From NCBI GenBank assembly GCA_035578905.1, contig JAQJVL010000002.1, forward strand, positions 8,680,717-8,744,716: 64,000 nt of DNA. The letters are read 5' to 3'. Below, piece by piece: positions 3,342 through 36,545 of this stretch (its first letter is position 1; every line of letters starts with the position of its first letter). This DNA is from Stictocephala bisonia (Eukaryota; Arthropoda; Insecta; Hemiptera; Membracidae). A program made the translations under genes and the position numbers. The notes beneath the pieces are model-generated. The model had not been told where the DNA came from. It worked only from the letters and a program-made list of their open reading frames with translations, and did not search any database.

Positions 3342-3787
3342 ACGTTGCCGTTAGAAGTACAGTGTCTATTGATATATTCACGAAAGCAACGCAAATACAG
3401 ACGCCGGCTTAAGCGAGTAAGCGCTGAGAATACTGACGCCTAGGTGAGTAAGGGCTGAGAATCTTTACCTGTTTATCTTTACCTCCATCCTACCCTCACT
3501 GATATATTTTACGACTGATCCCAGATCGTTTGACTGGTATTACATTCTCAACTATCCTTCTGATACTGGTCTTGTGTGTGAGTTTTTTCCCCCCTCAGGT
3601 TAAACGCTCAAAGTCTACTGTACGGTATACAAGAAGAACGACTGAAACAACCGAATGACGTATAGTTTTAATAAATATTTTTCCGGACCGTGCTTGGTAT
3701 GTAAGGCAAGCGTATGGCCCATGCACGTTTATTCGAGCAATGAAATAACGTGTTTACGACTTCAACATCTTTATAGGGGGTCGTATA

Positions 3788-5420
3788 CGGGAGGGTTGTC
3801 CTGGACACTCTCTGATACGCAACTTCAGGCATTGACGACTGCCGTTTCCATGGAAATGTTTATTCAATCTGTGGTAATGTCAACTCGCCAGCAGTAAACA
3901 CACAAGCCGCGTTTCGTTCCTTCTTCTTACATCGTCGAATATAACGATACAGCGAGGTTTATCGTAGCTTACACATCTCAGCTTGCTCAAACACGGGAGG
4001 GTTGTCCTGGCCACTCTGCTACGCAACTTACGGCATTGACGACTGCCGTTTCCATGGAAATGTTTATTCAATCTGTGGTAATGTCAACTCGTCAGCAGTA
4101 AACACACAAGCCGCGTTTCGTTCCTTCTTCTTACATCGTCGAATACAACGATACAGCGAGGTTTATCGTAGCTTACACATCTCAGCTTGCTCAAACACGG
4201 GAGGGTTGTCCTGGGCACTCTCTGCTACGCAACTTACGGCATTGACGACTGCCGTTTCCATGGAAATGTTTATTCAATCTGTGGTAATGTCAACTCGTCA
4301 GCAGTAAACACACAAGCCGCGTCTCGTTCCTTCTTACATCGTCGAATATAACGATACAGCGAGGTTTATCGTATCTTACACCTCTCAGCTTGCTCAAACA
4401 CGGGAGCGTTGTCCTGGGCACTCTCTGCTACGCAACTTACGGCATTCACGACTGCTGTTTCCATGGAAATGTTTATTCAATCTGTGGTAATGTCAACTCG
4501 TCAGCAGTAAACACACAAGCCGCGTTTCGTTCCTTCTTCTTACATCGTCGAATATAACGATACAGCGAGGTTTATCGTATCTTACACCTCTCAGCTTGCT
4601 CAAACACGGGAGCGTTGTCCTGGGCACTCTCTGCTACGCAACTTACGGCATTGGTGACTGCCGTTTCCATGGAAATGTTTATTCAATCTGTGGTAATGTC
4701 AACTCGTCAGCAGTAAACACACAAGCCGCGTCTCGTTCCTTCTTCTTACATCGTCGAATACAACGATACAGCGAGGTTTATCGTGTCTTACACCTCTTAG
4801 CTTGCTCAAACACGGGAGGGTTGTCCTGGGCACTCTGCTACGCAACTTACGGCATTGACGACTGCCGTTTCCATGGAAATGTTTATTCAATCTGTGGTAA
4901 TGTCAACTCGCCAGCAGTAAACACACAAGCCGCGTTTCGTTCCTTCTTACATCGTCGAATATAACGATACAGCGAGGTTTATCGTAGCTTACACATCTCA
5001 GCTTGCTCAAACACGGGGGCGTTGTCCTGGGCACTCTCTGCTACGCAACTTACGGAATTCACGACTGCCGTTTCCATGGAAATGTTTATTCAATCTGTGG
5101 TAATGTCAACTCGCCAGCAGTAAACACACAAGCCGCGTTTCGTTCCTTCTTACATCGTCGAATATAACGATACAGCGAGGTTTATCGTATCTTACACCTC
5201 TCAGCTTGCTCAAACACGGGAGGGTTGTCCTGAGCACTCTCTGCTACGCAACTTACGGCATTCACGACTGCCGTTTCCATGGAAATGTTTATTCAACCTG
5301 TGGTAATGTCAACTCGCCAGCAGTAAACAAGCCGCGTTTCGTTCCTTCTTCTTACTTCGTCGAATATAACGATACAGCGAGGTTTATCGTATCTTACACC
5401 ACTCAGCTTGCTCAAACACG
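3788..5420. repeat. ~205-bp tandem satellite, 8 copies
   Basis: Units begin CGGGAGGGTTGTCCTGG near 3788, 3994, 4198, 4401, 4607, 4813, 5014 and 5217, and the last stops at about 5419. Period is 201-206 bp, with few differences between copies apart from 3-6 bp indels. Each unit holds the palindrome TTTCCATGGAAA. The repeated short reading frames on both strands come from the satellite and are not genes. Copies with and without a TTC insertion are interspersed, which suggests unequal exchange. Confidence 0.92.
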
Positions 5421-5494
5421 GTTTATCGTACTTATATTACTTTATCTCTGCGAGTATTGTAAATATTTAAGGGCTTTCTATATTTTTATTTATT

Positions 5495-11002: not shown

Positions 11003-11028
11003 TTTTTTTTTTTTTTTTTTTTTTTTTT

Positions 11029-11355
11029 GAAGTTATACTTCTTTGCGCCCGTTAGACACTTTGGGATGGGATGTTGGTCGAGAAACCGCGTCACGCTGAA
11101 AAGTAAGAACAAATTTTTAAGAACTATCGATTAATCGATTGTTAATCGAAGAAATTACTGATAATGATAATATAGGTGTATAATATAATAATGAAGTCAC
11201 GTATAATATATTGAAGATAAATATATTGAATAATATTGAAAAATGTCTTATATTTCATTTATATATCCTGTCTGTTTGTGTGCGTGAGTGGGTGTATGAG
11301 AATGGCCAAAGAAGTATAACTTCCACCGTGTGGTCCGACGCACACCCAATTTTTT
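11029..11355 (+). repeat. TIR-bearing ~326-bp repeat, unit 1
   Basis: The unit follows a run of 26 T. It begins GAAGTTATACTTCTTTG and has the inverted copy CAAAGAAGTATAACTTC near 11307-11323, then about 32 bp of linker. A second unit begins at once at 11356. It is interrupted at 11371 by the giant palindrome and resumes at 29927. The two units are almost identical, so the target was a tandem dimer of this miniature element. Confidence 0.88.
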
Positions 11356-11365
11356 GAAGTTATAC

Positions 11366-11371
11366 TTCTTT
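11366..11371. repeat. Left 6-bp target-site duplication TTCTTT
   Basis: TTCTTT directly precedes the palindrome and is repeated directly after it at 29921-29926. Removing the insertion and one copy restores the start of a repeat unit exactly as in unit 1 (GAAGTTATACTTCTTTGCGC). Confidence 0.9.
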
Positions 11372-11399
11372 AGTAGTATAATATGGGAGTTCTGACTCA

Positions 11400-11580
11400 A
11401 AGTGACGTCACGTCAGACCGCTACCAGGACAGGGTCAAAGGTCACCGCTAATCTGTTATCAGCCACGTGTTGACCTTGAGGTCAAGTTTACTATTGTTTA
11501 CAACTGTTATCAGCCACGTGGTGACCTTGAAGGTCAGTTGGGCTAGGTCAGTGTTGTTTTGGTGTGACGTCACGCCGTTT
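11400..11580. promoter_or_regulatory. Subterminal block dense in binding-site-like motifs
   Basis: Just inside the end lie two CRE-like TGACGTCA sites (11403-11410, 11565-11572). There is also a duplicated module CTGTTATCAGCCACGTG (from 11453 and 11504), each followed by TGACCTTGA, the reverse complement of the nuclear-receptor half-site TCAAGGTCA. The block is more GC-rich than the rest of the arm. It may bind a transposase or carry a promoter; this is inference. A mirror copy lies at about 29712-29892. Confidence 0.45.
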
Positions 11581-11599
11581 TCGCGCGCTAATATCAGCT

Positions 11600-11960
11600 G
11601 ATGCAAAAAATATCTGTTTCTCTGTCGTCTGCTAGTATCAGCTGATGCAAAAAAAATCTGTTTTTTTCTTAAAATGTACTAACTGTGTTTTTTCCACAGT
11701 GTTACCAACTCACACGATGCAGAAAAAAATATCTCAGTGCTGCCAACTCACACGATTTATTACATTATACTATAATAAATACATATACGATTATCAAATT
11801 ATTTCTATATTGCGTTTTTTAGGTGTTACAGTAATATTAATTTAAATTCGTAATCCTTTTACGTTAACTATAATAAATATATATACGATTATTAAATTAT
11901 ACTATATTAAATACAAATGCGTTAGTAAATACGTTAAAATATGTTCGTTAAGTATTAGGA
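11600..11960. repeat. Subterminal short repeats of the left arm
   Basis: TATCAGCTGATGCAAAAAA occurs twice (from about 11590 and 11636), and CCAACTCACACGAT occurs at about 11706 and 11747 with a variant at 12949. The motif ACTATAATAAATA with ATACGATTAT also repeats. Clusters of short subterminal repeats are a usual feature of DNA-transposon ends. Confidence 0.6.
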
Positions 11961-12339
11961 GAACAGAACTTGGCAAGATCTCTGAAGTCGAGCGTTGGCG
12001 CGCTATCATATCGCTTGACCCTAGTGTCAGCCTGGCGCGCGCTTTATCAGCCCGCTGGTGCACGACTTTTCTTGGCTACAATTACGGTTCCTCTTCACTT
12101 CTGCTAGCCTAATACTCTATTTATTTTAAAACCTCTAAAATCGTTCACCTGAGCTAAACAAGGTATAATATGTTTAAATAAAATTAATTGAAGGATTGTT
12201 CTTAACCAGTCAACGTCTTTTTTTCCCTGATTTAATCCTATAAAGAGTATTTACATTATAGTACCTACATCTAGTAGATGATATTCATATAATAATTAAT
12301 ATTTATATTTTTGAAAACTCTATGAAAAAGGTTATGCTT

Positions 12340-12536
12340 TAATTAAAGTGTATTTTTTTCTTGTTACACGGTATACAGTATTAATGTGAATTATAATAGT
12401 AATATTTTGTATTTTATATAGTATTAATTTGTTCTGATAATTAAAGTGTATTTTTTTCTTGTTACACGGTATACAGTATTAATGTGAATTATAATAGTAA
12501 TATTTTGTATTTTATATAGTATTAATTTGTTCTGAC
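12340..12536. repeat. 98-bp tandem duplication in left arm
   Basis: A segment starting AATTAAAGTGTATTTTTTTC and ending TTAATTTGTTCTGA is present twice in tandem, nearly identical. A diverged third copy lies at about 12745-12895. The right arm mirrors it near 28757-28952. Confidence 0.85.
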
Positions 12537-13324
12537 CGTTTAACATATGAACCAGAGGGTTTTTTCTTCTTGTTGTTGTATAGTTTTCATGTATTAAATA
12601 TTTAATTTAGTATTTAAAAATCATAAGGTAAAATACTATTCTATGAATTTAAATAGTACCTACATATAGTATGCGATATTCATATAATAATTAATATTTA
12701 TATTTTCGAAAACTCTATGAAAAAGGACAGGTTGTGCTTCAATTAACTAGTGTATTTTTCTTGTTACACAGTATTCAGTATTAATTTGAATAATAATAGT
12801 AATATTTTGTATTTTATATGATGTATTAATACTATATAAAATGTATTTTTCCAATAATTCTTATTTAATATATTATTAATTTGTTCAAACAAAATCGGTT
12901 TTTCTTTATATTATATCAAATGTACCAACTGTTTTTTCACAGTGTTGCTAACTCACACGATTATTTGCATAATACTATATACCAGTATTTTTTTCTTGTT
13001 GTCAGTGTAGACAACTTATGCTTTCATTCGTAGTATATTATAATAAATCCGTGTACTATAATAAGTGCATCGATATTTATTCTTTGTCACGTTATAATAT
13101 AATAATTGTTATGGCTGTAAATTTAATCAGATTAAAAAGGATTCTGGTTTTTCTGTTTGCATATTTTATTTCAATATTGCATGTATTTATACTATATGAA
13201 GTACATTGTTCATACTAAATCATTATTTTCGTTGTACTATAATAAATGTAATTAATTTTTATATACAAATCAGTTAGAATATCTTTGAAACAGCTTACAC
13301 AGGTAGTTTTAAAGTAATATTCAA

Positions 13325-13760
13325 TAAAAATCTGCAAAGAGCGGCAACTTCATCTGTATCTCAACAACATCCAAAGTTTAATCAATTGGTAAATATTTGT
13401 TAGAATGTTTATTTTTTAATATATGTGGTAGTGAGACAGATATAAAAATTCATATAGTTTAATAAAAATCTGCAAAGAGCGGCAACTTCATCTGTACATG
13501 CATGTTTTTCAACAACAACCAAAGTTTAGGTGACCTGACGACTATTTTTTTCTTTAATCAATTGGTAAATATTTGTAAGAATGGTTATTTTTAATAAATA
13601 CTCTATATGTGGTAGTGAGGCAGATATAAAAATTCATATAATTTAATACAACTCTACAAAGAGATGAAACTTCATTAGTAGACCTATCTGTACATGCATT
13701 TTCCTCAACAACAACCAAAGTTTCTAGTTGGCTCTGGTAACCTAAATGGTGACATTTTTT
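13325..13760. repeat. Degenerate ~140-180-bp tandem repeat, 3 copies
   Basis: Units begin AATAAAAATCTGCAAAGAGC (13325, about 13462, diverged at 13644) and contain CAACAACAACCAAAGTTT and GTGGTAGTGAG. The right arm has four copies at about 27455-27975. This one extra unit accounts for nearly all of the 157-bp length difference between the arms. Confidence 0.8.
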
Positions 13761-14409
13761 CTTTCATAAATGGTTCAATAATACTGTATTTACAGTATTT
13801 ATTCAAATAATAATTTATATTTAATATAGTAATAATTTGTTATGATCATTTAATATTCAAACCAGATGCGTCTTCTGCTAAAGGATAGATGTGTCTGAAA
13901 TTTGTTAGTAAATTTGATATTGGTAATGATTTAAATTATGAGTCAAGTAGTTCAATTATTATTCCCTCACACGTTAGTTAAAACAATCGAATAATATTGA
14001 ATTGCGAGCCATATTTAGACTCTATGTAATATTACAATATGTAGCATTCGCTTTAAGATATCAAATAAAGTCCCTCTATTTACTATACCATTATTTTAAC
14101 CTAATATCACAAATAATTACTTTACAGATGTAAATTGCTGTTATTTATTATAAATTTACTACAAGACTTCAATAAGTTACATTCTACTAATGACAAGGGT
14201 GTCAAAATAAAATTTGATACACATTTCATTTCAGACTTGTTAAAAAAACGTTATTCATCATTTGCATACTTAAGTCTTCTGTTGAGAAATTTTTTTTTTT
14301 TACGTGAGTGTATGAATATAGAATGGAAAAATAACAGTTTATTTTCTCTAATATATTACAATAGGCTATAGATGTAAAATTGTCTATACATTTCATTTCA
14401 GTTATCCAT

Positions 14410-17400
14410 TAGGATCTTACGCACAAGAGCCTTAAGTAAACTTTTAATCTAATATGTTAAACACATTATAGCTTGAAGTTCTGTAAATATTAAATGGATA
14501 AAAATGTTTAATTTCTCCTAGAAAGGATCTTCATACATGTCTAAACTATTATAATATACCACGATTAAATATAAATGGTACTTTAAGTTAAAAATATGTT
14601 TTTTCCTACTTTGTAAAGATAATGAATTGAATAATACTTTCTCTTATTAACGAATTGAGTAAATAAAACAACAATGAATCCATTTATAACTGTATAGTGT
14701 ATTAAGTGTCGTATATTATGTTGATAATTTATATTAATACGAGTCTTTTCTTATAATTTCAACATAAATATTACAAACGCGTATTGAAAAAACCGAACTT
14801 TCAAATAACTTTAAAAAATTTGTGACCGATTCAACACGATTAATTTATTTTAGTAAGGTCAAGATAACTTCATTATTATAGATTTTGGTATTTTTTAAAA
14901 ATAAGATATTATATTAAACGTTTATCGCAATAAAACGTTATACATTGTTACTGATTTACTCATTAAATAAAAACTAAACTCATTGGCTCAATTTGAACGG
15001 GGGAAAAAACAATATATAAATGGAATAATAATACAATATAGATACATTTCATTTCAGATATGCAAATCGTTCTTCTACACTTGTATTCTTAAGTGCATAC
15101 ATATGCCCTATGTTTAAGATGAAACGTTTCTTGTATATGAAAAATCTATCCAAGTTCAATTTTGTCAGTGTCCGTATGTTGTGCAAGGGAGAGAACTAAG
15201 TATCAGGCTTGTCAATTAGTTGAAAATCAGGGCAATAATACGTGTTTTTTATCCAACGTAAAGCTGTATGTTACCTAGTTTTACTGGTTGCTAGACTTGT
15301 TATAATACAGTCAAACTCCGTTAGTAACGAGATTATATGAGTTATTCACACTCATCCTACTTATGTAATCATTCATATTCACCTTAGAATACTTTTCAAC
15401 TTAGAATCTTTTGTTGCCTTCTCATATCTAAGAATAATACTTTATATTGTTTTCTCTTAAAATAAGCCGTGAGAGTAAATACTATAATGGATGTTATGTT
15501 TAAACCGAATATAGAATATATGTAGACAAAATAAGTATATACTTAAACGGTTGATTTGGTATACCCTGTGTTTTACAAATATAGAAATGAAGATGTAATG
15601 AAAATGATAGCAAAATTAATTAAACTTAGCTAAGTAAATTAATTTCGTGTTTTCATAATGATATTTTTATTAGTATTCGCATTACGGATTTCTAAAGAAA
15701 TGGCAAACATTAGAGCTTGCAGTTCTGTATATCTGGATAAATATTAAATGGATACAAATGTTTAATTTCTCAAATAAAGGATCTTCATAGATGTTCAACT
15801 ATTATAATAAACACGAGAGAAACGACAAAATATAAATGACACTTTAAATTAAAAAGTATAAGTTTTTCCTATTTTGTAAAGATAGTTTTTCTTATCAATG
15901 AATTGGGTAAATAAAACAACAATTTTATGAATCCATTAACATTATAGTTTTCTCAATGTCCGTACGTTGTGCAGGGGAGAGAACTGAGTATTACTGTCGG
16001 CTGAGCAGAACGAAGGAAGGATAAACGAAAAAAATAGTTTAATTTCTTATTAGTATAATGCAAATAAATGCAAGTCTTGTTGCATTGATGAAAATAAAAG
16101 AAATATCGATTAACAATTAAGCTGACAATATGATAGCACTCTAGAACTAGAAGTCTAAACTAAATATACCAATTATATTAACTTTTAAACCTAAGTAAAT
16201 TGGACAAAAAGGTCATATATGAGTAACTAAATTAATAAAATATGTATTTTTTAGTTAAATTGATTTTCAATTACGTTCATTCTAATTTTATGTGATTAAA
16301 TTTTAGTTTTTTCCTGAACATTTTCTGCATGATAAACATTGCCAATAAATGACTAAAATGTTTTAATAGTTAACTATTCTGAATTTTTTACATTTGAGTA
16401 AACAAATACTATAATTAGTCGTTTGACACTCAGTGTAAAGTTAGTTTTTTCCTATTTTGTAAAAGATAATTAAACAGATAAAACAATAATTTATAATTCC
16501 GCTAATAACTACATAGTGAATGAATGTTACATAGTATGCTACTAGTTCATAAAATGGTCTTTTTGCTTATGACTGATTTTAAGTTTATAATTTATTTTTT
16601 GGTAAACATGATAAAACAAATACACATGCCAACACTAAGGGGAAAATGTATATTACAAAACAAATACGACCAACTTAATTACATTGAACTGGTGTCAGTC
16701 CATTTATAAATATACACTTATGTAAATGTTTTTTTGTGTGTGATCCTTAATGATCGACTTCTTTTAAATTACAAACTAAAACGACTTAGACTAGAATATA
16801 CAAGCCTTGTAAATATAATACACTTCTGAGATAACCATTATGAGTATGATTGTAACTTGCTTTATAGTGCTTTACATATTATTGTTTAATAGTCTGTATA
16901 TCTGATCAAATATTACATATTTTGAATGGACAAAAACGTTCATATACAACAATTATAAAAGGACAATCATTTTAATACTTCATTTTTTATAAATACATAT
17001 ATTTATTTCAAATAATCTTTTTTACGATACCAGACAATGGTGTATATTAGACTAATGGATCATGAATGATTAGACAATACGCTGCTGTATCCTTTGGTAT
17101 ATCGGTATAAAGGTGTCTTCTCTTGGAAAGTCAGTTTATCGAAACAAGGCTGATCATCACCAACTATGTAGTATGACAATTAAAACCTTGTATACATATA
17201 ATATAAAATTTATTTATTTCCATTGAAACTATCATATGGATAGTACTTGCTGTTCAAGTACAGTTTTAAAATATCTGAGTTACAATAATCCACCTCAATG
17301 ACCTCATAAATGTGAATTAATACAAGTCATCAACATCGCAAAAATGTATGAATCAATCGATTTCTTTTAAATAGCCAACTAAATTAGTTTAGGATAAAAA

Positions 17401-18065
17401 TGAAGGTATTATACAAATGATACACTTCTTATATCACCATTAGGATGTTATACATAAGAGCTTCAAATAAAATGTTAGTCTAAAATGCTTTACATATTAG
17501 AGCTTAGAGTTCTGTAAATATAACTAGACATTAAATGAAGGAAACATTTTTTTATTTCTCAAAGAGGAGATCTTCATACGTATTCAACTACTCTATTAAA
17601 ACTTAGCGAAACGATTTAAATATGAATGACACTATGTTTAAGCAGGTTTTTCCTATTTTGTAAAGATAATCAAACGGATAAAACAATGCTGCTACTAGTT
17701 CATAAAATGGTCTTTTGCTTATGACTGATTTTAAGTGTATAATTTATTTTGGTAAACATGTCAAAACAGATATGACCAACTTCGTTACATAGAACTGGTG
17801 TCAGTCCATTTAGAGATATACACTTATGTAAATTTTTTTTGTATAATCCTTATTGCTTGACTTCTTTTAGATTACAAAATAAAACGACTTAGTCTAGAAT
17901 ATACAAGCCTTGAAAATATTAAATATTTTTTAAATGGACAAAAATGTTCATTTGTCAAATAACGGATATAAATTCATATACAACAATTATATCATACTTG
18001 AGCCAAACTATTAAATTTAAAGTTCATCAACGACTGTAAAGATAATTTATATAGTCAAATATTTG
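14410..18065. repeat. Degenerate ~1-kb subrepeats building the arm
   Basis: A composite block with TTAAATGGATAAAAATGTTT, AGGATCTTCATA, ACTATTATAATA and TTTTTCCTATTTTGTAAAGA recurs in changed form at about 14410-14700, 15690-15960, 17440-17720 and 17930-18080. Partial versions lie between. Much of the arm therefore derives from old amplification of one non-coding unit. The right arm mirrors it. Confidence 0.6.
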
Positions 18066-18168
18066 GGTAAATAAAACATTATACGAGATTGTTCTGTTAA
18101 GAAAAATATTCTTATTCTTTATTCTTTTACAAATTTTTCACATATTTATTTACAAATAATGTCCTTGC

Positions 18169-18609
18169 TCAGAATCTTTGAACTTGTGATTCTTCAACTC
18201 CTTTCAGCTCGGCCATTAGTCTGTTGTAGAGTTCTTCCCCACACTCTTTAGAACCGATGCTTTCAAATAATTTAATAAATGAGTATTCGTGATTTCTAAC
18301 TTTGTTGCAAACGTAACAATCAGGACCACAAGTAGCTGTTTCTGTATGGTCCCTCTTAAATTTTATATTTTCTACATCCTCGACCAGTTCAGCCATTCTT
18401 TGAAGTTTTTCTTCAGCTTCTGGACTCCAGCTAGGTTTTGCAAATCTCAGCTCAAACATGACCATCAGCAAGTTTGTATACATTGTACCTATGTTGTTAC
18501 CCGGAGTGTGATATAGTGTCTGAACAATACCTTTATGTAACCTGAAAACTGTGTTGAAAAAGTGGTGGGTGAATAGTAACAGATTTATATAAAATGTTTT
18601 CAAAATCAA
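18169..18609 (-). CDS. Unrecognised small protein, left-arm copy
   Basis: An open frame of 146 codons whose translation is identical to the right-arm copy (22526-22966). It is read outward from the palindrome centre. The region from the Met at 18481-18483 (104 codons, MYTNLLMVMF...) is the likelier coding part. The features, start choice and splicing argument are given under the right-arm copy. Poly(A) signals AATAAA follow at about 18145-18150 and 18118-18123 on this strand. Confidence 0.55.
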   Translation of the reverse strand: MILKTFYINLLLFTHHFFNTVFRLHKGIVQTLYHTPGNNIGTMYTNLLMVMFELRFAKPSWSPEAEEKLQRMAELVEDVENIKFKRDHTETATCGPDCYVCNKVRNHEYSFIKLFESIGSKECGEELYNRLMAELKGVEESQVQRF

Positions 18610-18803
18610 ACGGTTATGCTTAAATAGGATCCAGAAGTTGTTATTTTATCTTAAAGATACTGTTTCATACAAACAGTTCACTCTTAACAAGTGTGATAAT
18701 ATTTATAAGTCACATATGTTTACTATAGTACAGACAATTTTCAATAAATTAATAATACCGGTTTTTGAAGCTAAAAATACACATACGAATGAAAATAACT
18801 TAC

Positions 18804-18932
18804 GTTAAATTTCAATACCCATAACACATATAAAAAGTCTTGTGATATTTTAGTTATTTTTAGTATAATAAAAATTAAAGAATATGAAACTAAATCAACT
18901 GCCATGATGCTATTAAAACGAATCTCAGCCAT
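18804..18932 (-). other. Possible 5' exon of the arm gene, left copy
   Basis: Mirror of 22203-22331: an ATG-initiated open stretch of 43 codons ending at a consensus donor (GTAAGT on this strand). See the right-arm entry for the phase problem. Confidence 0.25.
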
Positions 18933-20406
18933 TTTACAGTTGTATTATTTTTTGTCTTTAGTTAGCATACATTTTTATTTATTTTTTTCCCAAAAAACTT
19001 GATATGATTTGTTTGTAACGTGGTTACTTTTAGTTGACAGCCATTGTAAAACTATACATTGTGAAGTCCAATAAATGAATTTGAATGTGAAGTGCAGTTG
19101 AACATTCAATACTTTCCCTTTCATCCAAATAATGAACTTTATACTTAAGGTAGCACTAAAAAACCATACACTGTACGAACAAAACTATACTTTGTCTAGC
19201 TATATAAATAATACAAATGTACATAACTAAACTTTATATTCGTATAATACATTTAAGTATGTAGGATTAACATAATGAACTTAGGTATAGGGTATTTATT
19301 TTATTTTACGATACCTATTTACGTTGTATTCATGTTATTTATGCATTTAATGTGGAATGGAAACTGTAATTTAGATAATAATTTATTTCTCAAACACAGT
19401 GAATTATTAGCATTGATATTAAGTAGCACTCAAATAATAATATGGAATGCAAACTATAAATTACTTTCAAAGCTAATTCTCATTCACTTTGTCTGATTAG
19501 AATTGATATTAAGAGGCATTCAAAATAATTCATATGACGTTTGTATAAATAAAACCATATGTCTATTTTAAACTAGCCAGGCCAGATGATTAAGGCAATA
19601 AGGAAAGAACAAAGTAACCCAAATGCCATTCAAAGACAAATAGAGCACACTTATTGTAGTAATGTATTACAAATAAAGTAACCAAAACCACAATTGTTAA
19701 ATGTAATTTTACACTTCATTGTTTTCTCTGAAATATATTTTTCCATGCCAAGGAAAATAACACATATGTTTTAATTGTCTATGTTACAATATAAATGTGT
19801 TGTTGCGTAATATTTAAAATAATTACTAGCAGTTTAAAACGTTCAACTGTTTATTATCCTCCAACTAAATTGTTGTACATTACAAGTTATGTGTTCTGAA
19901 TAAGTAATTTATAGAAAAAGAACATTTATTGAGAAAAGTTTCGTTGAATCACATAAATATTATTAAGTATAATTTAATACTGATACGTTATATGTTTAAG
20001 GCTTGAAGATAAATGAAACATATTACTTATAGTAAAATTTCTTTATTCAAAATATTAATATAGTAAAACACAGTTAGTTTGGATACATACTATCTATTAA
20101 CATAGCTTTATTCATTAAAATTATACGCATATAATACAATTTTAAAATAATCGTTATAAACTCAATTTGTCCTACTTCAAATCTACGTTTAGTTTGAAAT
20201 ATAATACATAATTACATTACGTTTTAAACTTTAATTTTTACTATTTTAATTAAAGAATATCACAAAGACAGATAGAGTAGCTTACGGTAACTTTTTAGTG
20301 CAGCTTCATTGATTTCGAACTGTACACATACACATATAAAGGGGCTTATATTACTAATTGTACTGTATAATTTATAATTTTTATTGTGAATATTTAATGT
20401 TAAACA

Positions 20407-20728
20407 CTAATGTGACATGTTACTTTATGTCTCATGCACTGTCTTATTAGTCAATTCAGAATTTGCAATATTATCCTATAACGTATTAGTTATAGGACAA
20501 CAAAAATATGAAAATTTAATTACGTTTATGTATGTAAATAAAATGTACACAGAAATGAGGCTAACAATATTGTTAATAAAATACGATTTGTTCTAATAAC
20601 CAGTGTGAATGTAAATATAGTTAATCTTAGCACGATGACCCGTACTAATAAGTCAAGATAACTATAGATAAAGTAAGAGGCCAACGCTGAAATTGATTTG
20701 TTGTAGCATGAGTACAAATTAGATTTCC
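20407..20728. other. Central spacer of the palindrome (322 bp)
   Basis: Unique sequence between the arms with no credible gene. It holds a small perfect hairpin, TCCTATAAC...GTTATAGGA at 20474-20497 with a 6-base loop. The spacer is the only unpaired part of the element, and it would be the loop of the large hairpin if one strand folded. Confidence 0.9.
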
Positions 20729-22202
20729 TGTTTAACATTAAATATTCACAATAAAAATTATAAATTATACAGTACAATTAGTAATATAAGCCCCTTTATA
20801 TGTGTATGTGTACAGTTCGAAATCAATGAAGCTGCACTAAAAAGTTACCGTAAGCTACTCTATCTGTCTTTGTGATATTCTTTAATTAAAATAGTAAAAA
20901 TTAAAGTTTAAAACGTAATGTAATTATGTATTATATTTCAAACTAAACGTAGATTTGAAGTAGGACAAATTGAGTTTATAACGATTATTTTAAAATTGTA
21001 TTATATGCGTATAATTTTAATGAATAAAGCTATGTTAATAGATAGTATGTATCCAAACTAACTGTGTTTTACTATATTAATATTTTGAATAAAGAAATTT
21101 TACTATAAGTAATATGTTTCATTTATCTTCAAGCCTTAAACATATAACGTATCAGTATTAAATTATACTTAATAATATTTATGTGATTCAACGAAACTTT
21201 TCTCAATAAATGTTCTTTTTCTATAAATTACTTATTCAGAACACATAACTTGTAATGTACAACAATTTAGTTGGAGGATAATAAACAGTTGAACGTTTTA
21301 AACTGCTAGTAATTATTTTAAATATTACGCAACAACACATTTATATTGTAACATAGACAATTAAAACATATGTGTTATTTTCCTTGGCATGGAAAAATAT
21401 ATTTCAGAGAAAACAATGAAGTGTAAAATTACATTTAACAATTGTGGTTTTGGTTACTTTATTTGTAATACATTACTACAATAAGTGTGCTCTATTTGTC
21501 TTTGAATGGCATTTGGGTTACTTTGTTCTTTCCTTATTGCCTTAATCATCTGGCCTGGCTAGTTTAAAATAGACATATGGTTTTATTTATACAAACGTCA
21601 TATGAATTATTTTGAATGCCTCTTAATATCAATTCTAATCAGACAAAGTGAATGAGAATTAGCTTTGAAAGTAATTTATAGTTTGCATTCCATATTATTA
21701 TTTGAGTGCTACTTAATATCAATGCTAATAATTCACTGTGTTTGAGAAATAAATTATTATCTAAATTACAGTTTCCATTCCACATTAAATGCATAAATAA
21801 CATGAATACAACGTAAATAGGTATCGTAAAATAAAATAAATACCCTATACCTAAGTTCATTATGTTAATCCTACATACTTAAATGTATTATACGAATATA
21901 AAGTTTAGTTATGTACATTTGTATTATTTATATAGCTAGACAAAGTATAGTTTTGTTCGTACAGTGTATGGTTTTTTAGTGCTACCTTAAGTATAAAGTT
22001 CATTATTTGGATGAAAGGGAAAGTATTGAATGTTCAACTGCACTTCACATTCAAATTCATTTATTGGACTTCACAATGTATAGTTTTACAATGGCTGTCA
22101 ACTAAAAGTAACCACGTTACAAACAAATCATATCAAGTTTTTTGGGAAAAAAATAAATAAAAATGTATGCTAACTAAAGACAAAAAATAATACAACTGTA
22201 AA

Positions 22203-22331
22203 ATGGCTGAGATTCGTTTTAATAGCATCATGGCAGTTGATTTAGTTTCATATTCTTTAATTTTTATTATACTAAAAATAACTAAAATATCACAAGACTT
22301 TTTATATGTGTTATGGGTATTGAAATTTAAC
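22203..22331 (+). other. Possible 5' exon of the arm gene, right copy
   Basis: An ATG opens 43 codons (MAEIRFNSIM...) that end exactly at AAC|GTAAGT, a perfect donor. A polypyrimidine-AG acceptor (TTTTCAG) lies 262 bp downstream at 22593. The join is out of frame with the 146-codon frame: the exon ends in phase 0 and the acceptor needs phase 2. So this is either a 5' leader carrying a short upstream frame or a chance match. Confidence 0.28.
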
Positions 22332-22525
22332 GTAAGTTATTTTCATTCGTATGTGTATTTTTAGCTTCAAAAGCCGGTATTATTAATTTATTGAAAATTG
22401 TCTGTACTATAGTAAACATATGTGACTTATAAATATTATCACACTTGTTAAGAGTGAACTGTTTGTATGAAACAGTATCTTTAAGATAAAATAACAACTT
22501 CTGGATCCTATTTAAGCATAACCGT

Positions 22526-22966
22526 TTGATTTTGAAAACATTTTATATAAATCTGTTACTATTCACCCACCACTTTTTCAATACAGTTTTCAGGTTACAT
22601 AAAGGTATTGTTCAGACACTATATCACACTCCGGGTAACAACATAGGTACAATGTATACAAACTTGCTGATGGTCATGTTTGAGCTGAGATTTGCAAAAC
22701 CTAGCTGGAGTCCAGAAGCTGAAGAAAAACTTCAAAGAATGGCTGAACTGGTCGAGGATGTAGAAAATATAAAATTTAAGAGGGACCATACAGAAACAGC
22801 TACTTGTGGTCCTGATTGTTACGTTTGCAACAAAGTTAGAAATCACGAATACTCATTTATTAAATTATTTGAAAGCATCGGTTCTAAAGAGTGTGGGGAA
22901 GAACTCTACAACAGACTAATGGCCGAGCTGAAAGGAGTTGAAGAATCACAAGTTCAAAGATTCTGA
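22526..22966 (+). CDS. Unrecognised small protein, right-arm copy
   Basis: I do not recognise this protein. The full frame is 146 codons, but its first ~22 codons look intronic: a pyrimidine-rich tract runs into TTTTCAG at 22587-22593, a good 3' splice site. The Met at 22652 (104 codons) is therefore the likelier start. From there the protein has a hydrophobic start (LLMVMFELRF) and an acidic, probably helical middle (EAEEKLQRMAELVEDVENIK). A cysteine cluster CGPDCYVCNK sits near residues 60-69 of the 104, and the end is charged (AELKGVEESQVQRF). Translation is identical in both arms although the nucleotides are not wholly identical nearby. Two AATAAA signals follow (22985, 23012), so it looks like the terminal exon of a transcribed gene. 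A captured host gene or an element gene are both possible. Confidence 0.55.
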   Translation: MILKTFYINLLLFTHHFFNTVFRLHKGIVQTLYHTPGNNIGTMYTNLLMVMFELRFAKPSWSPEAEEKLQRMAELVEDVENIKFKRDHTETATCGPDCYVCNKVRNHEYSFIKLFESIGSKECGEELYNRLMAELKGVEESQVQRF

Positions 22967-22984
22967 GCAAGGACATTATTTGTA

Positions 22985-23017
22985 AATAAATATGTGAAAA
23001 ATTTGTAAAAGAATAAA
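22985..23017 (+). promoter_or_regulatory. Polyadenylation signals after the arm gene
   Basis: AATAAA at 22985-22990 and again at 23012-23017, 19 and 46 bases after the stop codon. This is the usual layout for a eukaryotic mRNA end. Confidence 0.5.
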
Positions 23018-26000
23018 GAATAAGAATATTTTTCTTAACAGAACAATCTCGTATAATGTTTTATTTACCCAAATATTTGACTATATAAATTATCTTTACA
23101 GTCGTTGATGAACTTTAAATTTAATAGTTTGGCTCAAGTATGATATAATTGTTGTATATGAATTTATATCCGTTATTTGACAAATGAACATTTTTGTCCA
23201 TTTAAAAAATATTTAATATTTTCAAGGCTTGTATATTCTAGACTAAGTCGTTTTATTTTGTAATCTAAAAGAAGTCAAGCAATAAGGATTATACAAAAAA
23301 AATTTACATAAGTGTATATCTCTAAATGGACTGACACCAGTTCTATGTAACGAAGTTGGTCATATCTGTTTTGACATGTTTACCAAAATAAATTATACAC
23401 TTAAAATCAGTCATAAGCAAAAGACCATTTTATGAACTAGTAGCAGCATTGTTTTATCCGTTTGATTATCTTTACAAAATAGGAAAAACCTGCTTAAACA
23501 TAGTGTCATTCATATTTAAATCGTTTCGCTAAGTTTTAATAGAGTAGTTGAATACGTATGAAGATCTCCTCTTTGAGAAATAAAAAAATGTTTCCTTCAT
23601 TTAATGTCTAGTTATATTTACAGAACTCTAAGCTCTAATATGTAAAGCATTTTAGACTAACATTTTATTTGAAGCTCTTATGTATAACATCCTAATGGTG
23701 ATATAAGAAGTGTATCATTTGTATAATACCTTCATTTTTATCCTAAACTAATTTAGTTGGCTATTTAAAAGAAATCGATTGATTCATACATTTTTGCGAT
23801 GTTGATGACTTGTATTAATTCACATTTATGAGGTCATTGAGGTGGATTATTGTAACTCAGATATTTTAAAACTGTACTTGAACAGCAAGTACTATCCATA
23901 TGATAGTTTCAATGGAAATAAATAAATTTTATATTATATGTATACAAGGTTTTAATTGTCATACTACATAGTTGGTGATGATCAGCCTTGTTTCGATAAA
24001 CTGACTTTCCAAGAGAAGACACCTTTATACCGATATACCAAAGGATACAGCAGCGTATTGTCTAATCATTCATGATCCATTAGTCTAATATACACCATTG
24101 TCTGGTATCGTAAAAAAGATTATTTGAAATAAATATATGTATTTATAAAAAATGAAGTATTAAAATGATTGTCCTTTTATAATTGTTGTATATGAACGTT
24201 TTTGTCCATTCAAAATATGTAATATTTGATCAGATATACAGACTATTAAACAATAATATGTAAAGCACTATAAAGCAAGTTACAATCATACTCATAATGG
24301 TTATCTCAGAAGTGTATTATATTTACAAGGCTTGTATATTCTAGTCTAAGTCGTTTTAGTTTGTAATTTAAAAGAAGTCGATCATTAAGGATCACACACA
24401 AAAAAACATTTACATAAGTGTATATTTATAAATGGACTGACACCAGTTCAATGTAATTAAGTTGGTCGTATTTGTTTTGTAATATACATTTTCCCCTTAG
24501 TGTTGGCATGTGTATTTGTTTTATCATGTTTACCAAAAAATAAATTATAAACTTAAAATCAGTCATAAGCAAAAAGACCATTTTATGAACTAGTAGCATA
24601 CTATGTAACATTCATTCACTATGTAGTTATTAGCGGAATTATAAATTATTGTTTTATCTGTTTAATTATCTTTTACAAAATAGGAAAAAACTAACTTTAC
24701 ACTGAGTGTCAAACGACTAATTATAGTATTTGTTTACTCAAATGTAAAAAATTCAGAATAGTTAACTATTAAAACATTTTAGTCATTTATTGGCAATGTT
24801 TATCATGCAGAAAATGTTCAGGAAAAAACTAAAATTTAATCACATAAAATTAGAATGAACGTAATTGAAAATCAATTTAACTAAAAAATACATATTTTAT
24901 TAATTTAGTTACTCATATATGACCTTTTTGTCCAATTTACTTAGGTTTAAAAGTTAATATAATTGGTATATTTAGTTTAGACTTCTAGTTCTAGAGTGCT
25001 ATCATATTGTCAGCTTAATTGTTAATCGATATTTCTTTTATTTTCATCAATGCAACAAGACTTGCATTTATTTGCATTATACTAATAAGAAATTAAACTA
25101 TTTTTTTCGTTTATCCTTCCTTCGTTCTGCTCAGCCGACAGTAATACTCAGTTCTCTCCCCTGCACAACGTACGGACATTGAGAAAACTATAATGTTAAT
25201 GGATTCATAAAATTGTTGTTTTATTTACCCAATTCATTGATAAGAAAAACTATCTTTACAAAATAGGAAAAACTTATACTTTTTAATTTAAAGTGTCATT
25301 TATATTTTGTCGTTTCTCTCGTGTTTATTATAATAGTTGAACATCTATGAAGATCCTTTATTTGAGAAATTAAACATTTGTATCCATTTAATATTTATCC
25401 AGATATACAGAACTGCAAGCTCTAATGTTTGCCATTTCTTTAGAAATCCGTAATGCGAATACTAATAAAAATATCATTATGAAAACACGAAATTAATTTA
25501 CTTAGCTAAGTTTAATTAATTTTGCTATCATTTTCATTACATCTTCATTTCTATATTTGTAAAACACAGGGTATACCAAATCAACCGTTTAAGTATATAC
25601 TTATTTTGTCTACATATATTCTATATTCGGTTTAAACATAACATCCATTATAGTATTTACTCTCACGGCTTATTTTAAGAGAAAACAATATAAAGTATTA
25701 TTCTTAGATATGAGAAGGCAACAAAAGATTCTAAGTTGAAAAGTATTCTAAGGTGAATATGAATGATTACATAAGTAGGATGAGTGTGAATAACTCATAT
25801 AATCTCGTTACTAACGGAGTTTGACTGTATTATAACAAGTCTAGCAACCAGTAAAACTAGGTAACATACAGCTTTACGTTGGATAAAAAACACGTATTAT
25901 TGCCCTGATTTTCAACTAATTGACAAGCCTGATACTTAGTTCTCTCCCTTGCACAACATACGGACACTGACAAAATTGAACTTGGATAGATTTTTCATAT

Positions 26001-27454
26001 ACAAGAAACGTTTCATCTTAAACATAGGGCATATGTATGCACTTAAGAATACAAGTGTAGAAGAACGATTTGCATATCTGAAATGAAATGTATCTATATT
26101 GTATTATTATTCCATTTATATATTGTTTTTTCCCCCGTTCAAATTGAGCCAATGAGTTTAGTTTTTATTTAATGAGTAAATCAGTAACAATGTATAACGT
26201 TTTATTGCGATAAACGTTTAATATAATATCTTATTTTTAAAAAATACCAAAATCTATAATAATGAAGTTATCTTGACCTTACTAAAATAAATTAATCGTG
26301 TTGAATCGGTCACAAATTTTTTAAAGTTATTTGAAAGTTCGGTTTTTTTAATACGTGTTTGTAATATTTATGTTGAAATTATAAGAAAAGACTCGTATTA
26401 ATATAAATTATCAACATAATATACGACACTTAATACACTATACAGTTATAAATGGATTCATTGTTGTTTTATTTACTCAATTCGTTAATAAGAGAAAGTA
26501 TTATTCAATTCATTATCTTTACAAAGTAGGAAAAAACATATTTTTAACTTAAAGTACCATTTATATTTAATCGTGGTATATTTTAATAGTTTAGACATGT
26601 ATGAAGATCCTTTCTAGGAGAAATTAAACATTTTTATCCATTTAATATTTACAGAACTTCAAGCTATAATGTGTTTAACATATTAGATTAAAAGTTTACT
26701 TAAGGCTCTTGTGCGTAAGATCCTAATGGATAACTGAAATGAAATGTATAGACAATTTTACATCTATAGCCTATTGTAATATATTAGAGAAAATAAACTG
26801 TTATTTTTCCATTCTATGTTCATACACTCACGTAAAAAAAAAATTTCTCAACAGAAGACTTAAGTATGCAAATGATGAATAACGTTTTTTTAACAAGTCT
26901 GAAATGAAATGTGTATCAAATTTTATTTTGACACCCTTGTCATTAGTAGAATGTAACTTATTGAAGTCTTGTAGTAAATTTATAATAAATAACAGCAATT
27001 TACATCTGTAAAGTAATTATTTGTGATATTAGGTTAAAATAATGGTATAGTAAATAGAGGGACTTTATTTGATATCTTAAAGCGAATGCTACATATTGTA
27101 ATATTACATAGAGTCTAAATATGGCTCGCAATTCAATATTATTCGATTGTTTTAACTAACGTGTGAGGGAATAATAATTGAACTACTTGACTCATAATTT
27201 AAATCATTACCAATATCAAATTTACTAACAAATTTCAGACACATCTATCCTTTAGCAGAAGACGCATCTGGTTTGAATATTAAATGATCATAACAAATTA
27301 TTACTATATTAAATATAAATTATTATTTGAATAAATACTGTAAATACAGTATTATTGAACCATTTATGAAAGAAAAAATGTCACCATTTAGGTTACCAGA
27401 GCCAACTAGAAACTTTGGTTGTTGTTGAGGAAAATGCATGTACAGATAGGTCTA

Positions 27455-27975
27455 CTAATGAAGTTTCCTCTCTTTGTAGATTTGTATTAAATTATATGAA
27501 TTTTTATATCTGCCTCACTACCACATATAGAGTATATATTAAAAATAAACATTCTTACAAATATTTACCAATTGATTAAAGAAAAAAATAGTCGTCAGGT
27601 CACCTAAACTTTGGTTGTTGTTGAAAGACATGCATGTACAGATGAAGTTGCCGCTCTTTGCAGATTTTTATTAAACTATATGAATTTTTATATCATCTGT
27701 CTTACTACCACATATAGAGTATATATTAAAAATAAACATTCTTATAAATATTTACCAATTGACTAAACTTTTGGTTGTTGATGAGATACATGCATGTACA
27801 GATGAAGTTGCCGCTCTTTGCAGATATTTATTAAACTATATGAATTTTTATATCTATCTCACTACCACATATATTAAAAAATAAACATTCTTACAAATAT
27901 TTACCAATTGATTAAACTTTGGATGTTGTTGAGATACAGATGAAGTTGCCGCTCTTTGCAGATTTTTATTGAATA
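27455..27975. repeat. Degenerate tandem repeat, right arm (4 copies)
   Basis: The mirror of 13325-13760 with one added unit. The units carry GCCGCTCTTTGCAGAT and TTTGGTTGTTGTTG. Copy-number change here is the main structural difference between the two arms. Confidence 0.8.
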
Positions 27976-29920
27976 TTACTTTAAAACTACCTGTGTAAGC
28001 TGTTTCAAAGATATTCTAACTGATTTGTATATAAAAATTAATTACATTTATTAGAGTACAACGAAAATAATGATTTAGTATGAACAATGTACTTCATATA
28101 GTATAAATACATGCAATATTGAAGTAAAATATGCAAACAGAAAAACCAGAATCCTTTTTAATCTGATTAAATTTACAGCCATAACAATTATTATATTATA
28201 ACGTGACAAAGAATAAATATCGATGCACTTATTATAGTACACGGATTTATTATAATATACTACGAATGAAAGCATAAGTTGTCTACACTGACAACAAGAA
28301 AAAAAATACTGGTATATAGTATTATGCAAATAATCGTGTGAGTTAGCAACACTGTGAAAAAACAGTTGGTACATTTGATATAATATAAAGAAAAACCGAT
28401 TTTGTTTGAACAAATTAATAATATATTAAATAAGAATTATTGGAAAAATACATTTTATATAGTATTAATACATCATATAAAATACAAAATATTACTATTA
28501 TTATTCAAATTAATACTGAATACTGTGTAACAAGAAAAATACACTAGTTAATTGAAGCACAACCTGTCCTTTTTCATAGAGTTTTCGAAAATATAAATAT
28601 TAATTATTATATGAATATCGCATACTATATGTAGGTACTATTTAAATTCATAGAATAGTATTTTACCTTATGATTTTTAAATACTAAATTAAATATTTAA
28701 TACATGAAAACTAAACAACAACAAGAAGAAAAAACCCTCTGGTTCATATGTTAAACGGTCAGAACAAATTAATACTATATAAAATACAAAATATTACTAT
28801 TATAATTCACATTAATACTGTATACCGTGTAACAAGAAAAAAATACACTTTAATTATCAGAACAAATTAATACTATATAAAATACAAAATATTACTATTA
28901 TAATTCACATTAATACTGTATACCGTGTAACAAGAAAAAAATACACTTTAATTAAAGCATAACCTTTTTCATAGAGTTTTCAAAAATATAAATATTAATT
29001 ATTATATGAATATCATCTACTAGATGTAGGTACTATAATGTAAATACTCTTTATAGGATTAAATCAGGGAAAAAAGACGTTGACTGGTTAAGAACAATCC
29101 TTCAATTAATTTTATTTAAACATATTATACCTTGTTTAGCTCAGGTGAACGATTTTAGAGGTTTTAAAATAAATAGAGTATTAGGCTAGCAGAAGTGAAG
29201 AGGAACCGTAATTGTAGCCAAGAAAAGTTGTGCACCAGCGGGCTGATAAAGCGCGCGCCGGCTGACACTAAGGTCAAGCGATATGATAGCGCGCCAACGC
29301 TCGACTTCAGAGATCTTGCCAAGTTCTGTTCTCCTAATACTTAACGAACATTTTTTAACGTATTTATTAACACATTTGTATTTAATATAGTATAATTTAA
29401 TAATCGTATATATATTTATTATAGTTAACGTAAAAGGATTACGAATTTAAATTTATATTACTGTAACACCTAAAAAACGCAATATAGAAATAATTTGATA
29501 ATCGTATATGTATTTATTATAGTATAATGTAATAAATCGTGTGAGTTGGCAGCACTGAGATATTTTTTTCTGCATCGTGTGAGTTGGTAACACTGTGGAA
29601 AAAACACAGTTAGTACATTTTAAGAAAAAAACAGATTTTTTTTGCATCAGCTGATACTAGCAGACGACAGAGAAACAGATATTTTTTGCATCAGCTGATA
29701 TTAGCGCGCGAAAACGGCGTGACGTCACACCAAAACAACACTGACCTAGCCCAACTGACCTTCAAGGTCACCACGTGGCTGATAACAGTTGTAAACAATA
29801 GTAAACTTGACCTCAAGGTCAACACGTGGCTGATAACAGATTAGCGGTGACCTTTGACCCTGTCCTGGTAGCGGTCTGACGTGACGTCACTTTGAGTCAG
29901 AACTCCCATATTATACTACT

Positions 29921-29926
29921 TTCTTT
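29921..29926. repeat. Right 6-bp target-site duplication TTCTTT
   Basis: Direct repeat of 11366-11371, immediately after the terminal ...CCCATATTATACTACT of the palindrome. Confidence 0.9.
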
Positions 29927-30235
29927 GCGCCCGTTAGACACTTTGGGATGGGATGTTGGTCGAGAAACCGCGTCACGCTGAAAAGTAAGAACAAATTTTT
30001 AAGAACTATCGATTAATCGATTGTTAATCGAAGAAATTACTGATAATGATAATATAGGTGTATAATATAATAATGAAGTCACGTATAATATATTGAAGAT
30101 AAATATATTGAATAATATTGAAAAATGTCTTATATTTCATTTATATATCCTGTCTGTTTGTGTGCGTGAGTGGGTGTATGAGAATGGCCAAAGAAGTATA
30201 ACTTCCACCGTGTGGTCCGACGCACACCCAATTTT
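29927..30235 (+). repeat. TIR-bearing repeat, remainder of unit 2
   Basis: Continues with GCGCCCGTTAGACACTTTGG, matching unit 1 from 11045 onward to ACACCCAATTTT. Together with 11356-11371 it makes a complete unit of about 325 bp. A T-rich run follows (30236-30255). Confidence 0.9.
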
Positions 30236-32925: not shown

Positions 32926-33525
32926 TGATATCCACCCACCCACCCACACACGTATAGAGGTGTTGACTTACCCACCCACCCACACACGTACATTGGTATT
33001 GACCTACCCACCTATCCATACACATACAGTGGTATTGACCTACCCAGCACCCATCCATACACGTACATTGGTATTGACCTATACCTATATAGTGGTGTTG
33101 ATCTATCCGCCCATCCATACTAGTACACATTGGTATTGACCTATCTACCCATCCATACACGTACAGTGGTATTGACCTACCCACCCATCCATACACGTAC
33201 AGTAGTATTGACCTATCCACCCATCCATACACGTACATTGGTATTGACCTATACCTATATAGTGGTGTTGATCTATCCGCCCATCCATACTAGTACACAT
33301 TGGTATTGACCTATCTACCCATCCATACACGTACAGTGGTATTGACCTACCCACCCATCCATACACGTACAGTGGTATTGAACTACCTATCCATCCTACA
33401 CGTACAGTGGTATTAACCTACCTATCCATCCATACACGTACAGTGGTATTGATCTACCCACCCATCCATACACGTACAGTGGTATTGACCTACCTACCCA
33501 TCCATACACGTACAGTGGTATTTGA
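32926..33525 (+). repeat. Dispersed minisatellite, locus 1
   Basis: About 16 imperfect units of 30-42 bp of the type CATCCATACACGTACAGTGG followed by TATTGACCTACCCAC. A longer block (about 33065-33235, with a variant TATACCTATATAGTGGTGTT) is itself duplicated, giving a higher-order repeat. The open frames on both strands follow from the lack of stops in the repeat. Confidence 0.92.
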
Positions 33526-36095: not shown

Positions 36096-36545
36096 TACAC
36101 TTACAGTGGTGATGACCCACCCACCCACCCACCCGTACACTTACAGTGGTGATGACCCACCCGTACACTTACAGCGGTGATAACCTACCCGCCCACCCAT
36201 ACACTTACAGTGGTGATGACCCACCCACCCAGCCGTACACTTACAGTGGTGATGACCCACCCGTACACTTACAGTGGTGATGACCCACCCGTACACTTAC
36301 AGCGGTGATAAGCTACCCGCCCACCCATACACTTACAGTGGTGATGACCCACCCACCCACCCGTACACTTACAGTGGTGATTTTACTACTGTACGTGTAT
36401 GGGCGGGCGGGTGGGTCAAGGTTACTCTACATGTATGGGCGGGCGGGTGGGTCAATGCCACTGTACGTATGGGCGGGCGGATGGGTCAATGTTACTGTAC
36501 GTGTATGGGCGGGCGGGTGGGTCAATGCCACTGTACGTGTATGGG
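36096..36545. repeat. Dispersed minisatellite, locus 2, with orientation switch
   Basis: Units of the form CACCCGTACACTTACAGTGG + TGATGACC run to about 36380. The array then continues in the opposite orientation (GTGTATGGGCGGGCGGGTGG...) to 36545. The junction near 36380-36395 is a head-to-head inversion, so the locus can fold. Frames on both strands are by-products. Confidence 0.9.

Follow-up and report, generated by a model that had tools for sequence, protein, structure and literature searches.

Whole-length palindromes with Maverick ends in the membracid Stictocephala bisonia: a probable multi-copy lineage of non-autonomous satellites

Protein-primed viruses and plasmids give palindromic genomes in culture. 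Adenovirus 12 SYREC and the palindromic derivatives of linear plasmids are linear palindromes that carry one viral end at both termini and are explained by strand switching; symmetric recombinant (SYREC-type) genomes arose in culture. Vertebrate Mavericks (Polintons) have been described with 5'-(AGT)2//(ACT)2-3' as their commonest end motif, with 6-bp target-site duplications and with a mean size of about 17 kb that varies by roughly 10%, and their end repeats have been given a role in the jumping-back step of protein-primed replication (PMC8097293). Here we describe a palindrome of 18,549 bp (11372..29920), two arms mirrored about a 322-bp centre, in a 64,000-nucleotide stretch of the genome of Stictocephala bisonia (assembly GCA_035578905.1, contig JAQJVL010000002.1, positions 8,680,717 to 8,744,716 of the forward strand), the whole of which is referred to below as the window. 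The element probably represents a multi-copy lineage of non-autonomous Maverick/adintovirus satellites with a whole-length palindromic genome, which would be mobilised in trans and whose arms would be homogenised during protein-primed replication. Among the literature matches listed, no title or opening of an abstract named a palindromic Maverick family, the subscription literature lying outside this coverage.

The palindrome and its insertion site are composed of the following features, in window coordinates:

11023..11353, + strand: adjoining identical copy of the target repeat, the empty site
11366..11371, no strand: left target-site duplication TTCTTT, same as 29921-29926, with a single TTCTTT in the adjoining empty-site copy
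11372..29920, no strand: entire palindromic element, 18,549 bp
11372..11377, + strand: AGTAGT terminus, equal to the (AGT)2//(ACT)2 end motif described for vertebrate Mavericks (PMC8097293)
11372..20406, + strand: left arm, 9,035 bp, with 22 substitutions against the right arm
20407..20728, no strand: central spacer, 322 bp
20729..29920, - strand: right arm, 9,192 bp, an inverted copy of the left arm
29915..29920, + strand: ACTACT terminus, as read from the sequence
29921..29926, no strand: right target-site duplication TTCTTT

A first-pass annotation of the window had already given the position of the palindrome, its 322-bp centre, its matching ends and the 6-bp direct repeat outside them, all in agreement with what was found here, and had proposed that the palindrome moved as a single mobile element. 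This proposal is upheld by the TTCTTT duplication and the 331-bp empty site, which bracket the whole palindrome. The flanks joined across the element give 331 bp that are 100% identical to the neighbouring tandem copy of the target repeat at 11023-11353, and because they match it over this length without a difference, the window itself shows what the site looked like before insertion. The identity of the two tandem copies over 331 bp would mean either that the duplication is very recent or that a heterozygous insertion has affected the assembly. Allowing up to 3 mismatches, the 20-nt end of the element occurs within the window only at both termini (2 matches; 0.02 expected by chance). The target (11023-11353; 29921-30235 plus 11354-11371) is a MITE-like (miniature inverted-repeat transposable element-like) repeat with inverted ends GAAGTTATACTTCTTTG/CAAAGAAGTATAACTTC.

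The genome (1.68 Gb) was searched with the first 301 bp of the element, and 40 of 1,054 candidates were scored. These 40 end matches make up 11 inverted pairs, that of the window included, and 18 singles; the ten further pairs considered below are every inverted pair less than 20 kb apart besides the window's among the 40, with the halves of each taken as separate stretches. Seven of the ten are whole-length palindromes (C2341, C163, C425, C323, C5982, C7082 and C671), another (C433) is a 12-kb palindrome that has decayed and carries an inserted Tc5-like transposase in one of its arms, and the remaining two are a coding Maverick (C6206) and a coding element with 5.0-kb inverted ends (C85). The eight full-length palindromes, window included, measure 17,285-18,882 bp, and the coding elements 19,313 and 17,600 bp. 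The 6-bp duplications are perfect and mutually different in all nine elements that retain both flanks, again counting the window; C6206 and C7082 run off their contigs, which makes the duplication untestable there. Two kinds of relatives suggested in the first-pass annotation as worth a search were thus both found: full-length copies with the same ends, of which there are seven, six of them with a testable and different 6-bp duplication, and a Maverick with PolB and integrase that has these ends in common (C6206). Inverted reads are a known class of artefact, and the inner arms are nearly identical, as would be the case if one arm had been read twice through a missed hairpin adapter or an amplification chimera. 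There is very little chance that this is so, given the perfect 6-bp duplication and the empty site around the whole palindrome, the 22 substitutions and 160-bp indel that separate the arms, and the seven more full-length palindromes on other contigs, six of them with a testable duplication of their own.

Judged from its predicted genes, C6206 is a Maverick/adintovirus-like element. It encodes an rve integrase (a chromodomain match stayed below its cut-off), a double-jelly-roll (DJR) major capsid protein (E 4e-106), a Pox_A32-like ATPase, a phospholipase A2-like (PLA2) domain, a dUTPase and a protein of 1,227 aa with an Endonuclease_7 domain. The relatives of the latter protein include proteins named DNA polymerase (70% in Homalodisca liturata), the best-named PolB relatives being those of Homalodisca and Macrosteles, and it shows 51% to PolB of the Ladona dragonfly adintovirus. 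It also contains YIDTDS, which we take to be a family-B polymerase motif; Pfam polymerase profiles gave no match in this protein, and solved structures and NCBIfam were of no help. On the strength of its named relatives and this motif, the protein is read as a putative family-B polymerase. A search for the capsid family scored 126 places of 2,558 candidates, all above the cut-off, and the genome is therefore rich in Mavericks.

Over its first 230 bp, the left end of C6206 is 95.2% identical to the window element, and its right end and the outer 1.2 kb of the window's arm are colinear; C425 begins with the same 50 nt as this right end. Because terminal variants are common to the presumed helper and its riders, the ends have apparently been exchanged and then equalised. 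The parts of the window element that match C6206 are:

11372..12587, + strand: outer part of the arm, which runs colinear with the C6206 right end (89.9% in the first 1,064 bp; 90.8% at arm positions 1,067-1,216)
17003..17290, - strand: fragment from the 3' part of the Maverick major capsid gene, matching in two blocks (88.5% and 89.3%)
23845..24132, + strand: inverted counterpart of the capsid-gene fragment, placed by means of the arm alignment
28707..29920, - strand: inverted counterpart of the part that matches the Maverick right end, with its start derived from the arm alignment

The end region and the capsid-gene fragment of about 290 bp are the only clear matches to C6206, and among the eight full-length palindromes the fragment is present in the window copy and C323 only. 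Neither the open frames of the element nor the comparison with C6206 revealed a PolB, integrase, ATPase or capsid gene. The element is like Maverick/Polinton (adintovirus-like) elements in its (AGT)2//(ACT)2 termini, 6-bp duplications, similar length and ends in common with C6206, and unlike them in being a palindrome, entirely inverted repeat, in which none of these genes was found; by gene content it is not a Maverick, and its ends and insertion fit a non-autonomous Maverick derivative. The option of a non-autonomous Maverick rider, raised in the first-pass annotation, gains support from the ends shared with C6206 and the distinct 6-bp duplications, and from these same features we infer mobilisation in trans by a Maverick. 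The near-equal lengths of satellites and coding elements hint at possible packaging in helper capsids, and the narrow span of these lengths at a possible role of capsid size.

Foldback, Galileo and Tetris elements make duplications whose lengths differ from the 6 bp seen here. Galileo has been classed with the P elements. Long inverted repeats are common to these families (PMC3573991, PMC4079207) and the present element, and are internally repetitive in Galileo. The arms of the window element also carry internal repetition, and very long, internally repetitive inverted repeats are what a foldback/Galileo-like cut-and-paste transposon unrelated to Mavericks would have. We give next to no credence to such an origin in view of the Maverick end motif, the 6-bp duplications and the first 230 bp, which are 95.2% identical to those of an element that encodes integrase, capsid and PolB; Maverick ends together with 6-bp duplications set the element apart from Foldback/Galileo. 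Teratorn is likewise a virus-derived mobile element with long inverted repeats, but differs in its size of 41-182 kb, its piggyBac-like ends and its herpesvirus genes (PMC6431247).

Arms are paired by copy. Left arms of different copies are 82-94% identical where aligned, against 97.0-99.97% (by aligned piece) between partner arms, and the nearest relative of an arm is its partner in 16 of 16 cases by identity and in 15 of 16 when identical bases are totalled; by that measure the right arm of C425 has more in common with the left arm of C7082. Substitutions between partners number 22 in 9,031 aligned bases in the window, 4/8,316 in C2341, 20/9,128 in C163, 75/8,496 in C425, 3/8,557 in C323, 19/9,107 in C5982, 55/8,868 in C7082 and 77/8,421 in C671. 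Nine of 10 palindromic-type elements, a set that takes in C85 and C433, have identical first 50 nt at both ends; there are 4 differences in C7082 and 11 in the coding Maverick C6206. Indels further separate the window's arms: four are 1-2 bases long, and a fifth, of 160 bp, is an extra stretch in the right arm that makes up most of the gap in arm length. Their substitutions are unevenly placed, the first 466 bp lacking any, 11838-14786 containing 20 and 14787-20406 containing 2, so that 20 of the 22 fall in the outer 3.4 kb; such unevenness was reached in 0 of 20,000 random placements (a binomial value of 3e-7 refers to a boundary picked after the data had been seen). Within-copy differences are patchy elsewhere too: the inner 2.3 kb of C425 are free of them, the first kb of C7082 holds 34, and a single kb of C671 holds 56. 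The partner arms of C671 are 97.5% alike, and those of two further related copies 94.8% (L049) and 94.6% (L050) over about 2 kb.

Gene conversion between arms is known from sex-chromosome palindromes, and patchiness of this kind, as in C425, C7082 and the window, would be in keeping with host gene conversion that keeps the arms alike after insertion, with replication uninvolved. We think this unlikely as the whole account: since the arms of the integrated copies C671, L049 and L050 have clearly diverged, conversion does not equalise all integrated arms, and the first 50 nt match between the ends in seven of the eight full-length palindromes. We account for the patchy differences by recombination between elements followed by incomplete arm matching, with host gene conversion as the rival.

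The centre of the palindromes is homologous in most copies examined. Of the seven other full-length palindromes, C671 has no spacer, and the remaining six have one that is homologous to the window's, 322 bp long in C2341, C163 and C323, 434-435 bp in two and 531 bp in one. Ten further centres were all palindromic, eight with a spacer matching the window's and two without a spacer; they had been picked because an internal probe showed inverted pairs, so that this count of ten in ten is not independent. The same probe gave 17 unpaired matches, six of which were fetched (two palindromic, one partly so, three not). A probe made from the spacer matched at all 40 places scored among 119 candidates, on 40 contigs with the window included, and nine of 12 spacers fetched lay between two arms, the others (L056, L059 and L063) having either arisen by deletion or come from relatives that are asymmetric. 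A hairpin within the window's spacer, considered as a shared signal, was present at only 6 of 17 centres, with L041 a loose seventh, and is not general. Because the arms pair by copy despite the divergence between copies, and because most examined centres are homologous, we conclude that the palindrome is inherited and that its arms are brought back into agreement. This inherited palindromic form, with its homologous centre and arms matched within each copy, was not foreseen in the first-pass annotation. The simplest reading would be one palindrome origin, followed by spacer loss or editing and by the decay of some copies.

A single in-place event of the kind that could have started such a lineage is visible in C85. 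This element is 99.2-99.8% identical to C6206 from the left end through the capsid gene into PolB, where it switches to the inverted left 5.0 kb with a 1-bp overlap at the junction; its two ends have no substitution in 4,999 aligned bases and are bracketed by the 6-bp duplication ACCAAG. C85 thus seems to result from a switch of the growing strand of a Maverick onto that element's own end, after which the product inserted like any other Maverick. The fold-back derivative, a second option of the first-pass annotation, is in this way documented for a Maverick end, and for the satellite lineage a corresponding strand switch may be supposed; rider and fold-back, listed there beside a third option, a new element class, turn out to be one story. 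C85 shows that fold-back of a Maverick end occurs, and together with the three of 12 fetched spacers that lacked two arms it would suit the notion that each palindrome is a fresh fold-back of an asymmetric master and that the palindrome is not inherited. That notion is nevertheless very doubtful: independent events would be expected to differ in their centres, as C85 does, whereas the copies have homologous spacers. These measure exactly 322 bp in the window, C2341, C163 and C323, although the left arms of these four show no more than 85-91% identity where aligned.

In the favoured explanation, that of inherited satellites mobilised in trans, the first palindrome probably arose when a growing Maverick strand switched back onto its own end, at a junction of the type seen in C85. 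A helper Maverick would then prime replication at the AGTAGT ends via terminal protein, and the palindrome would be copied by strand displacement with the helper's polymerase. The displaced single strand could form a 9-kb hairpin, with one arm serving as the template from which its partner is copied or repaired, and the product would be inserted by the helper's integrase. Because hairpin copying or repair would match the arms during the cycle, each new insertion would begin with nearly identical arms, which then drift apart. We also entertain, tentatively and as a stronger version, a stable satellite lineage in which one arm can rebuild the whole, a single-strand hairpin rewrites one arm from the other in each replication round, molecules with a lost or damaged arm, or that have recombined with the helper, are made symmetrical again, and the genomes are packaged in the capsids of a helper adintovirus and inserted by its integrase.

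Several observations weigh against the favoured explanation. The palindrome family is known here from genome sequence alone, and once the outer 1.2 kb and the capsid-gene fragment are set aside, convincing matches to C6206 are lacking over most of the arm. There are several length classes of spacer, three examined centres have no spacer, and the spacers of L056, L059 and L063 do not lie between two arms; among the unpaired matches of the internal probe that were fetched, half are non-palindromic and one is palindromic only in part. Some arms are only 94.6-97.5% alike, with patchy differences, and the matching is thus incomplete; arm-to-arm gene conversion in the host could contribute to it.

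The eight full-length copies are like SYREC-type replicons in having the same viral end at both termini, and unlike them in their many genomic copies, their separate duplications where testable and their homologous centre. A lasting genomic palindrome family would differ from by-products of culture, its symmetric form having been inherited through many insertions while the sequence changed. Such inherited symmetry would make arm-to-arm copying during replication testable from genomic data, and the divergence between arms would serve as an internal clock for insertions. With this family, very large palindromes of an insect genome are also traced to a source, and C85 would present a plausible first step at base resolution.

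The longest open frame of the element, beyond which no frame exceeds 158 codons, is present in both arms:

18169..18645, - strand: open frame of 158 codons
22490..22966, + strand: mirror of the 158-codon open frame

Related sequence is found in all eight full-length palindromes, with the frame broken in C671. Neither Pfam nor the protein database nor viral contigs yielded a match to the frame, whose structure model was uninformative (mean predicted local distance difference test score, pLDDT, of 43). Our first impression of a spliced captured gene with a polyadenylation signal was dropped after a codon comparison of seven of the eight full-length copies, C671 being excluded for its broken frame. 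Over the 21 pairs there was no synonymous excess, variable columns were distributed 13/7/3 by codon position, and three copies had late stops; no sign of purifying selection on the protein was seen among the seven copies, and because of the lack of synonymous excess, the codon-position pattern and the late stops, a working protein is not claimed. The region itself (18169-18645 / 22490-22966) is 96-98% conserved between seven copies, with flanks mostly lower, which may reflect constraint at the DNA level or recent spread. A related palindrome at G000:C3:6265061-6271216 has the internal frame three times rather than twice, probably through an extra duplication in one arm.

Rfam gave nothing above the gathering score over the window, with one weak match in the arm (E 0.3, below the gathering score), and the GC-normalised dinucleotide signal of the arm was within the range of host windows and gives no distinction between host-like and foreign origin. 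The terminal 16-mer had one exact match in each of 10 stretches of viral contigs (L001-L010), which are taken as chance. In human adenovirus 37 (HAdV-37), positions 8-17 are described as the adenovirus pTP/polymerase site ATAATATACC (PMC2397415); ATAATAT at positions 7-13 of the window element resembles this site, other copies having ATAGAAT or ATAGTAT there, and the likeness may be treated as a lead. The outer 300-400 bp of the arms (11372-11780 and its mirror) are GC-richer than most of the arm and contain repeated motifs, GTGACGTCAC twice and CTGTTATCAGCCACGTG twice, in the manner of a cluster of transcription-factor sites. The host flanks of the window contain arrays of direct repeats at 3787-5421, 32934-33522, 36127-36545, 45901-47325 and 54075-54637.

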